Origin: Bryobacteraceae bacterium
Lineage (GTDB): Bacteria > Acidobacteriota > Terriglobia > Bryobacterales > Bryobacteraceae
Assembly (NCBI GenBank): GCA_026002875.1
Contig: BPGE01000001.1
Span: 1,736,001-1,800,000 of the forward strand
Direction: 5' to 3'
Length of the DNA: 64,000 nt
Shown: piece by piece, positions 55,693 through 58,263 of the stretch
How positions within the stretch are numbered: the stretch's first letter is position 1
Layout: every line of letters begins with the position of its first letter
Program-made: the position numbers and the translations under genes
The notes under the pieces: model-generated
Seen by the model: the letters and a program-made list of their open reading frames with translations, nothing else
What the model was told of the DNA's origin: nothing
Databases searched by the model: none

Positions 55693-56241
55693 TCAGGCCT
55701 CCGCCGGCGCGGCCTCCTCGCCCAACGGCAGCAGCTCGAGCCCGCCGAGCTCCTGCGCCGTCATCACTTCGTCAATGTCGAGCAGGATCTTGACCCGCCC
55801 CTTGACCTTGGCCATGCCGAGGACGTAGGGCAGGCGGACATCGTCGCCGAAGGACGGCGTGTCCTCGATCTCCTGCTCCTGGATGGTGAGCACCTCGCTG
55901 ACGCCGTCGACGACGACGCCCATGAGGAGGGGCTCGCCCTGGCCGCCGCGGCGCTGCACCTGGAGCACGACGATGCAGGTGCGGGAGGTGGATTCGCCGT
56001 CGGGCATGCCGAACTTGCGGCGGAGGTCGACGACGGGGATGACTTTGCCGCGGAGATTGATGACGCCGCGGACGTAGTGCGGGGTCTGCGGCACTTCGGT
56101 GATTTCCTGCAGCCCCATGATCTCGCGCACCTTGAGGACGGCCACGGCGAACTCTTCGCGGCCGAGGTGGAAGACGAGGTATTTGCCCTGGCGGCCGCTG
56201 CCGCCGCGGGTCTGCCTGCTCAAAACGCTCTGCGCGTCCAT
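55693..56241 (-). CDS. cheW: Chemotaxis coupling protein CheW
   Basis: A 182-residue CheW-domain protein: [56 protein letters not shown] and [13 protein letters not shown]. It links receptor and CheA. It is first in the operon, and its upstream gap (176 bp to the divergent peroxiredoxin gene) should contain the operon promoter. Short charged extensions flank the domain. Confidence 0.95.
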
Positions 56242-56417
56242 GCGTCCGACGATCCTTCCGGATGGCGGCCGCGCCCCGTTTCCCGCGGAGGTCCGCCGGG
56301 GGCGCGGCTCTCACCGCACATATCGGACGGGCGGGGAAGAATCGCAGAGAAAGTTGGCGGTTGTGGTATGCTCGGCGCAAGTCCGCGCTCTGGCGCGGAA
56401 CTCGACAAGGAGGCGCA

Positions 56418-56945
56418 ATGCGCACTGGGATTGCATTCCTGCTGTTGGCGGGGCTGGCGCTGGGCCAGCCGGCGGCGCCGCCGAAGACGCATCTGAAGCC
56501 GGGCGACGAGGCGCCGGATTTCCGGCTGCGGACGACGGACGGCAAGGAATTCCATCTGGGCTCGCACCGCGGGAAGACGGTGGTGGTGGCGTTCTTTCCG
56601 GCGGCGTTCACCGGCGGTTGAACGAAGGAGATGACGGCGTACCAGGCTGGTATCGCGGAATTCGAAAAGACGGGCGCCGTGGTGATTGGCGTCAGCACGG
56701 ACAATCTGCCCTCGCTGCGGCACTGGGCGCAGGAGGTGCTGAAGCTGAGCTTTCCGCTGGCGAGCGATTTTGTGCGGCGCGAGGTGGCGCGCGCCTACGG
56801 GGTGCTGAACGAGGCGAGCGGGATCGCCAACCGGGCGACGTTCGTCGTGGGACCGGACGGGCGGATCGTGCACATCGACGAGGGCTCGGCGGCGCTCGAC
56901 CCCGAGGGCGCGCTCACGGCGTGCCGGCGGACGAAGAAGCCGTAG
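56418..56945 (+). CDS. Secreted peroxiredoxin with in-frame TGA (probable selenocysteine) at the catalytic position
   Basis: Read through one TGA (56619-56621), the frame encodes 175 residues. The start at 56418 has AAGGAGG four bases upstream, and MRTGIAFLLLAGLALGQ is a signal peptide. Then come LKPGDEAPDFRLRTTDGKEF and VVAFFPAAFTGG, the TGA as residue 68, and TKEMTAYQAGIAEFEKTGAVVIGVSTDN. In AhpC/TSA peroxiredoxins this position is the peroxidatic Cys (AFTxxCTKE). Reading frame and homology continue without break to the end (ATFVVGPDGRIVHID). A SECIS-like hairpin follows the TGA. Selenocysteine is the best reading; a nonsense mutation at exactly this codon is less likely. It would reduce peroxides in the periplasm. 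Confidence 0.88.
56637..56656 (+). promoter_or_regulatory. Bacterial SECIS-like hairpin after the peroxiredoxin TGA
   Basis: The transcript can fold GCG-TACCA / TGGTA-T-CGC with apical loop GGC (56645-56647) and one bulged U. The stem starts 15 nt after the TGA and the loop lies about 23-25 nt after it. Bacterial SECIS elements lie inside the reading frame directly after the UGA, with a short apical loop that has G in its first two positions, as here. SelB binding is inferred. Confidence 0.7.
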
Positions 56946-56957
56946 GCGCGCGGGCGG

Positions 56958-57596
56958 TCAGGGCAGTTCGCGGATCCAGATGTCGCGGAACTGCATGTGG
57001 CCGTCGCCGCCGGAGTGCAGCTGCAGGGCGATCGTGCCGGTGAGGAACGGCGCGCGGGGGTCGGTGAAATCGACCATCTGCACGCCGTTCAGGCGCGAGA
57101 TGTAGCGGTTGCCGTTGACGGTGACGAGCATTTCGTTCCACTCGTTCTGGCGGACCACCGTTTCGTTTTCCGGCGCGGGCCAGACGATCCACTGGCGGCC
57201 GAAGCCGTAGACGCCGCCCGTGTGGCGGCCGATGGCGCAGTCGATTTCGAACTGCGCGCCCTGGCTGACGTCGGCGGTGCCGGGCTTGAAGCGCGTGTGG
57301 AAATAGACGCCGGAATTTCCCGTGCCAATGCACTTGAATTTGAGGGAAAGCTGGAAATTGCGGTAGTCTTTTGCGGTTTCCAGGTACCCGTATTCTTTTG
57401 TGACGGCGCGGCCGATGAGGACGCCGTCGGAGACGGTCCATTCCTCCTTGCCGACGACGTTCCAGCCGGAGAGATCCTTGCCGTTGAACAGTTGCACCCA
57501 GTCCTCGCCGGGCGGGCGCACGCCTTTGGGCAACTGGGCCGGCAGCAGGGCGGCTGCGGCCGCGCAGAGAAGGGCGGTGCAGAGGGAACGCTTCAT
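56958..57596 (-). CDS. Secreted DUF1080 (3-keto-disaccharide hydrolase-like) protein
   Basis: A 212-residue protein from the ATG at 57596 (MKRSLCTALLCAAAAALLPAQ, signal peptide). The beta-sandwich DUF1080 signature is WVQLFNGKDLSGWNVVGKEEWTVSDGVLIG, then GNSGVYFHTRF, WNEMLVTVNGNRYISRLNGVQMVDF and IALQLHSGGDGHMQFRDIWIREL. The family is abundant in Acidobacteria and Planctomycetes; some members hydrolyse 3-keto-glycosides. The open frame continues upstream through repeat array 2, which is not coding. It is convergent with the peroxiredoxin gene (12-bp gap). Confidence 0.88.
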   Translation of the reverse strand: MKRSLCTALLCAAAAALLPAQLPKGVRPPGEDWVQLFNGKDLSGWNVVGKEEWTVSDGVLIGRAVTKEYGYLETAKDYRNFQLSLKFKCIGTGNSGVYFHTRFKPGTADVSQGAQFEIDCAIGRHTGGVYGFGRQWIVWPAPENETVVRQNEWNEMLVTVNGNRYISRLNGVQMVDFTDPRAPFLTGTIALQLHSGGDGHMQFRDIWIRELP

Positions 57597-57695
57597 GGGT
57601 TTCAGCTTATCGCCGGGGGAGGCGGGTGCGCCAGCGGAGGGAGGCGGGCGGCCTGAAGACCGGGCGGGAGGGGGGCTTTGCGCGGACGAGGCAAG

Positions 57696-58137
57696 CACGG
57701 TTGGGATGCAGCCCTCGCGCAAGCGCGAGGGGAGATCCGTGGGGGAGGGTGCGAGGGGCACGGTTGGGATGCAGCCGCCGCCCAAGGGCGGCGGGAAACC
57801 CGTTGGGGGGGTGCGAGGGGAAGCCCGGGGGGATGCAGCCGCCGCCCAAGGGCGGCGGGAAACCCGTTGGGGGGGTGCGAGGGGCACGGTTGGGATGCAG
57901 CCCTCGCGCAAGCGCGAGGGGAAGCCCGGGGGGATACAGCCCTCGCGCAAGCGCGAGGGGAGGTCCGTGGGGGAGGGTGAGAGGAGCACGGTTGGGATGC
58001 AGCCGCCGCCCAAGGGCGGCGGGAAACCCGTTGGGGGGGTGCGAGGGGCACGGTTGGGATGCAGCCCTCGCGCAAGCGCGAGGGGAAGCCCGGGGGGATG
58101 CAGCCCTCGCGCAAGCGCGAGGGGAGATCCGTTGGGG
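57696..58137 (-). repeat. Hairpin repeat array 2 (8 units)
   Basis: The same repeat as at 32785-33310, on the opposite strand. The box GGATGCAG (GGATACAG once) starts at 57704, 57767, 57831, 57893, 57932, 57995, 58057 and 58096, so spacings are again 39 or 62-64 bp. Units 1, 4, 5, 7 and 8 carry the stem CCCTCGCGC/GCGCGAGGG; units 2, 3 and 6 carry CCGCCGCCC/GGGCGGCGG. Both arms change together. Long linkers contain AAACCCGTTGGGGGGGTGCGAGG. It lies between two minus-strand genes, after the DegT gene and before the DUF1080 gene. I see no coding signal. Confidence 0.95.
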
Positions 58138-58263
58138 AGGGCGCGGGGGAGGACTGGTCGCGCGCTGCGCGCGCGATGGGACGGTGTTGGCCGGTTGGAG
58201 AGGTTTGGTCGCCGCTTCGTCGCAGCCCTCCGGGCTGTTCGTGCGCGGCTGTGATCAGCGCTG

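Follow-up and report, generated by a model that had tools for sequence, protein, structure and literature searches.

Does the reading frame at positions 56418–56945 (+ strand), which contains an in-frame TGA, encode a working selenoprotein, or is it a broken gene? The frame lies in the window, i.e., the whole 64,000-nt stretch of DNA that was analyzed, which is part of a Bryobacteraceae genome consisting of one contig of 4.86 Mb and given as 100% complete. It begins with an ATG at 56418 and, with the exception of a single TGA, is open to a TAG at 56943–56945. The product has 175 residues and carries the motif FFPAAFTGG-U-TKEM. The original prediction, made from the sequence alone, described a frame running through one TGA, a strong ribosome-binding site at its start, and a single other cysteine near residue 169. 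All three descriptions are accurate: the TGA is codon 68, the sequence AAGGAGG stands just upstream of the ATG, and C169 is the sole Cys codon in the frame. The features discussed here are as follows.

56407..56413, + strand: ribosome-binding site AAGGAGG, 4 nt upstream of the ATG at 56418
56418..56945, + strand: predicted gene for a secreted selenocysteine (Sec) peroxiredoxin, 175 codons plus TAG, with TGA read as Sec
56418..56465, + strand: predicted signal peptide (MRTGIAFLLLAGLALG, with cleavage ahead of QPA at a site placed by eye), from a crude hydrophobicity rule
56619..56621, + strand: TGA codon 68, assigned to Sec at the peroxidatic position (PAAFTGG-U) from the frame reading, alignments, and homologues
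56637..56656, + strand: bacterial SECIS hairpin with 8 pairs, a bulged U, and a GGC loop that an A-U pair closes; the loop lies 23 nt from the UGA
56922..56924, + strand: C169, a near-invariant C-terminal cysteine and proposed resolving residue, from homologue counts and alignment

Reading the frame with table 11 divides it into two ORFs, 56262..56621 and 56631..56945, which is the split that had been expected of automatic annotation. Genes of this kind are broken in two by table 11 and are therefore easily overlooked. In four congeners (L018–L021), the start lies 67–68 codons upstream of the TGA, and AGGAGG is matched in full in all four.

The protein is a peroxiredoxin on both sides of the TGA. 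The Pfam AhpC-TSA model (PF00578) matches residues 28–152, straight across the TGA, with an E value of 6.8e-36 and 123.4 bits against a cut-off of 26, so the homology is unbroken, as had been claimed. Alignment to known peroxiredoxins places the TGA at their Cys position: in four alignments, it falls on the Cys of Mycobacterium tuberculosis AhpE and of the solved peroxiredoxin 2ywn.

The same codon can be followed through a large family, so the gene is not a one-off. In a class-wide search, 269 of 399 genomes gave a match with an E value of 1e-20 or below, and the weaker of these matches may be other peroxiredoxins. We read 90 loci, 30 from this search and 60 that were fetched, mostly top matches and hence biased toward close relatives; family copies in these loci were counted at a tblastn E value of 1e-15 or better. 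Among the 98 copies, the codon is TGA in 83, TGC in 14, and TGT in one, and the homologues are open outside this site. Thus, both of the forms that the original prediction proposed to look for, Cys and TGA, exist. In a second, named set, drawn from the best 80 loci of a longer list and including some other peroxiredoxin types, 83 copies were read, with 57 TGA and 26 Cys codons; the nearest of these best 80 named loci is from a Candidatus Solibacter usitatus metagenome-assembled genome (71%). Lastly, in a phylum sample of 199 genomes, 20 places selected for a single listed TGA all read TGA at this codon; 12 of them have the C-terminal Cys, 7 have a Cys at Sec+4, and one has neither.

Several variants were seen among these loci. 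Seven of them (L088, L089, L091, L095, L099, L100, and L101) carry tandem pairs of TGA-bearing peroxiredoxin genes, of which the second copies group on a separate branch (SH-aLRT 91). A sister branch (L072, L078, and many of L086–L106) has an FYVLAFTGGU-type motif, in which the active-site Pro of PxxxTxxC, a residue that is usually conserved, is replaced by Val. Other loci (L223–L228 and L230; L155, L173, and L184) carry a second type of Sec-peroxiredoxin that also seems to be exported; it reads WFPKAFTGGU-T-x-E-C, has its Cys at Sec+4, and occurs in Acidobacteriota and, judging by record titles, in Pirellulaceae, Planctomycetota, and Verrucomicrobia. UAG was considered as a second Sec codon and rejected for the four loci examined: in L096–L098, the TAG is an ordinary terminal stop, and the stop in L099's second copy ends the frame ahead of the Cys.

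If the TGA were instead a nonsense mutation or a sequencing error, the downstream half of the gene would be dying; the division of the frame into two ORFs by standard annotation would suit this reading. The homologues speak against this, since 83 of 98 have TGA at the same codon; the identical TGA in congeners specifically argues against a sequencing error. Moreover, both halves are under purifying selection. Relative to the four congeners, dN/dS is 0.02–0.22 upstream of the TGA (signal peptide left out) and 0.04–0.13 downstream; relative to two more distant relatives, it is 0.12–0.25 upstream and 0.23–0.47 downstream. The degraded pattern of a pseudogene, which was to have counted against the prediction, is not seen in these otherwise open frames, and the SECIS hairpin covaries (see below). 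On the conserved TGA and the dN/dS values, we reject a pseudogene, frameshift, or sequencing error, to which we attach a negligible probability.

The hairpin 3′ of the TGA is the second line of evidence. Counting the T of TGA as nucleotide 1, its upper pairs are 22-34, 23-33, 24-32, 25-31, and 26-30, enclosing a three-base loop. In the 83 TGA copies, all five upper pairs form in 68, four form in 14, and none in one; in 82 of the 83, the base after G27 is G or U. In the 15 Cys copies, by contrast, five pairs form in one and 0–3 in the other 14. Of 82 distinct TGA sequences, 55 have TAC/GGT and 23 have TAT/GAT as the codons at nt 22–24 and 31–33. The TAC/TAT swap is silent in a Tyr codon, while the GGT/GAT swap turns Gly into Asp; because one side is silent and the other changes the protein, it is the RNA pair that is being kept. 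For 76 distinct TGA sequences, 90.1% of cells are paired, compared with 83.1% after shuffling and at most 58.6% after sliding, and the covariation score is 0.208, compared with 0.084 for shuffles. The sole measure among the controls that did not exceed the shuffles was the number of further pair types (96 of 500 shuffles reached the observed value). A tree of 98 rows has seven changes at nt 24 and six at nt 32; on this tree, the 24/32 covariation involves few independent changes, too few for significance (sign test p 0.125, five starred pairs). Predicted stability relative to synonymous resampling also differs between the two forms: the mean z is −2.19 for TGA copies, 78 of 82 of which lie below −1, whereas Cys copies average −0.39, with 5 of 15 under −1. 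Together, these data support a covarying SECIS hairpin tied to the TGA.

The window's own hairpin is a less extreme example, with a stability z of only −1.35 against synonymous resampling. It fits the bSECIS rules given in the available portions of PMC13188914, with its GGC loop, spacing of 23, and −10.6 kcal/mol in the best sub-window. By these same rules, 80 of 82 TGA and 6 of 15 Cys sequences of the class pass, as do 43 of 47 TGA and 12 of 25 Cys sequences of the named set, meaning that the rules separate TGA from Cys forms poorly. When 60 nt of the window are folded alone, the minimum-energy structure (−12.0) differs from the SECIS (−8.8), whose stem pairs have probabilities of 0.38–0.58. 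RNAalifold finds a weak consensus (−1.62) for 79 class sequences, which we think is due to the lower stem pairing in shifted registers. A hairpin model (R1) run on the genome recovers the window site with an E value of 2.4e-15; the second and third matches have E values of 0.04 and 0.5. The second match was rejected as another SECIS gene, as it lies in no open frame and is a chance site.

Two homologues depart from the general pattern. The TGA form at L105 (genome G224) lacks the hairpin, with none of the five upper pairs; its TGA may be served by a different SECIS or may be in decay. At L059, all five upper pairs persist in a TGC form, whose genome (G222) has retained selA. This fossil hairpin points to a change from Sec to Cys in that case.

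Insertion of Sec at UGA 68 would also need decoding machinery, and the original prediction proposed a genome-wide search for the sel genes. All of them were found: selA (500 bits, cut-off 268), selB (354 bits, cut-off 242), selD (354 bits, cut-off 125), and tRNA-Sec, i.e., selC (75.5 bits against a gathering score of 47, with another site in the genome at 49.6). ARAGORN types the 75.5-bit site as tRNA-SeC with anticodon tca (UCA). The selD gene (L011, genome positions 3321497–3322402, − strand) carries an in-frame TGA of its own (KAAG-TGA-ASKLSP), which we take to be at its catalytic position. Because the TGA is conserved, a SECIS follows it, selection is purifying on both sides, and the Sec machinery is present, we read the locus as a real selenoprotein gene rather than a pseudogene. 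On this sequence evidence, the probability that it is a working selenocysteine peroxiredoxin gene is about 0.93.

The association with Sec machinery extends across the class. We tallied selA in 126 genomes of the class that had a TGA-containing row among the matches listed (to ~E 1e-32), in part of which the TGA position was read; selA is found at E 1e-60 or better in 123 of them, with G317 (1e-64) and G188 (1e-67) close to this limit. The other three (G373, G391, and G336) are all drafts. Full-length selB is above its cut-off in G373, G391, and G317, and G336, which is 59% complete, has only a contig-edge piece that is possibly selB. Class-wide, selA is above its cut-off in 286 of 399 genomes. 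The association between a TGA row and selA has a Fisher p of 9e-18, a value that ignores kinship and comes from a hand-typed list in which 288 genomes were counted as selA-bearing.

A quick tree of the 98 rows implies several switches between Sec and Cys: it needs nine such changes, at least four of which are forced by starred branches. Only Cys copies were read in ten genomes, four of which (G063, G036, G169, and G024) each have one further match. Three of the ten (G063, G387, and G258) have neither selA nor selB above cut-off; the other seven (G036, G169, G021, G323, G222, G082, and G024) have selA, so loss of selA cannot explain every Cys form. With several switches on one tree, a fossil SECIS, and Cys forms in three genomes that have neither selA nor selB above cut-off, the family lends itself to studying how Sec and Cys replace each other.

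Selenocysteine peroxiredoxins are a known class, as the original prediction said. Sec-Prx (PF00578, TxxU) stands above the heading “Predicted with high confidence,” with a citation to Sohling 2001, in the available portions of PMC13188914, and likewise appears in the selenoprotein list in the accessible part of PMC9312934. The window gene has the corresponding sequence features, i.e., an AhpC-TSA domain, a UGA within PxxxTxxU (PAAFTGGU), a bSECIS just 3′ of the UGA, and Sec machinery in the genome. Like PrxU of E. acidaminophilum, it belongs to PF00578 and has Sec as the peroxidatic residue of PxxxTxxU; it differs in its score against the PrxU model NF040737 (66 bits, below the curated cut-off of 270), and it carries a signal segment and a Cys at Sec+101. 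Two other selenoprotein models of related fold match weakly: NF041054, WAxxUGC_long (27.9, cut-off 300), and NF045827, Prx-SUH (50.4, cut-off 298). No WAxxUGC_long selenoprotein scores above its cut-off anywhere in the genome.

The closest solved relative of the window protein is M. tuberculosis AhpE, Rv2238c (E 2.6e-21; 5.6e-41 with a profile). According to the accessible part of PMC5302317, the AhpE subgroup is marked by an Ala-Phe dyad, PxAF(T/S)xxC, and by Val or Ile directly before the peroxidatic residue. The window protein shares the dyad ahead of the Thr (PAAFTGGU), but has Gly67 rather than Val or Ile before Sec. It also differs from AhpE in having Sec for Cys, an export signal, and a C-terminal Cys past the AhpE-aligned part. 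Because Gly67 replaces Val/Ile, we describe the protein as AhpE-like by sequence without assigning it to AhpE.

Earlier surveys include selenoproteins from this phylum. A 2006 survey gave four selenoproteins in three families for Acidobacteria, and three Sec-Prx in Anaeromyxobacter dehalogenans (PMC1794560). One Acidobacteriota genome with three known selenoprotein genes was reported with deep-Sep (PMC12013277). The words “periplasm” and “signal peptide” are absent from PMC13188914. In the titles and abstract openings of the open-licence literature searched, we found no description of a Sec-peroxiredoxin that is exported or from Acidobacteriota; the words “periplasmic peroxiredoxin” occur in one paper (PMC5340862). 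Thus, the class is known, and the exported variant with a C-terminal Cys is one for which this literature yielded no description.

How would the enzyme be recycled? Of the 83 TGA copies, 81 have a C-terminal Cys, located at Sec+98 to +105, as do all 15 Cys copies (96 of 98 in total), and C169 is invariant in a 64-row alignment (A1); the two copies without it are tandem second copies, in L088 and L099. Because it is nearly invariant, C169 is probably the resolving residue. AhpE enzymes are 1-Cys peroxiredoxins, and the window protein could work in the same way, with an external thiol reducing Sec and C169 being structural or part of another disulfide. AhpE being the closest solved relative, and C169 lying outside the part that aligns to it, would suit such an enzyme, which we consider possible but rather unlikely: C169 is the only other Cys, its counterpart is kept in almost all homologues, Cys forms included, and an unpaired exported thiol would seldom be retained without a use. 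The genome offers candidate reductants. AhpC-TSA matches occur at 19 places; three resemble BCP, AhpC, and Tpx by sequence and have no signal segment, and several others resemble exported thioredoxin-like proteins, which, together with the genome’s one DsbD-like protein, are the candidates.

The original prediction of a signal peptide is supported, by a crude rule, through the conservation of an N-terminal hydrophobic segment. The rule is satisfied by 68 of 82 TGA and 12 of 15 Cys homologues; one more TGA copy without a start is outside the 82. The remaining 14 TGA forms might suggest that the segment is a membrane anchor, making this a genuine selenoprotein that is cytoplasmic or membrane-anchored. 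However, some of the failures (e.g., L054 and L061) arose where the script picked an internal start. Judged by eye, many rows have a short n-region, a hydrophobic core, and a small-x-small site before Q, and the BCP-, AhpC-, and Tpx-like Cys peroxiredoxins of the genome have no such segment. An anchor is therefore improbable, and the enzyme is very likely exported, probably to the periplasm.

In the genomic neighborhood, upstream and on the other strand, are CheW, MCP, CheA-type, and CheR genes; downstream, also on the other strand, are genes for a 3-keto-disaccharide hydrolase domain protein and a DegT-type aminotransferase, separated by imperfect G+C-rich tandem repeats with periods of 39–164 (57695–58141). 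Since its neighbors are on the other strand, the peroxiredoxin gene seems to be transcribed alone; no consensus promoter or terminator was found at 56200–57050. Crude ORF clustering of the loci revealed no conserved co-directional partner. The clusters present in at least five loci are an other-strand CheW-type gene (eight), pieces of the family’s own tandem copies (eight), and four clusters of five loci. The lack of a partner, the chemotaxis genes in the window, and the divergent CheW-type gene adjoining in eight loci would be compatible with a redox signal or oxidant relay in place of a peroxide scavenger. Nevertheless, the CheW gene is on the opposite strand and nothing else points to signaling, so we regard such a role as doubtful.

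For the preferred reading, a peroxide-removing enzyme, we propose the following sequence of events. UGA 68 would be decoded as Sec by SelB and tRNA-Sec, directed by the SECIS inside the coding sequence. Its N-terminal signal peptide would bring the chain to the periplasm, where the selenolate would reduce peroxide and be oxidized to a selenenic acid. Attack by C169, of the same or another subunit, would give a selenenylsulfide, which an exported thioredoxin-like protein fed by DsbD may then reduce again.

Acidobacteriota are common in soils. We give even odds to a broader proposal, that the phylum has an extracytoplasmic, selenium-dependent peroxide defence, in which exported Sec-peroxiredoxins of two or more architectures, one with a C-terminal resolving Cys and one with U-x3-C, would occur phylum-wide and be recharged by DsbD-driven exported thioredoxins. 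The C-terminal-Cys family in this proposal includes one branch in which the active-site Pro is replaced by Val (FYVLAFTGGU). The window enzyme itself would give these bacteria a peroxide-removing selenoenzyme outside the cytoplasm, linking selenium supply to the redox defence of the envelope.
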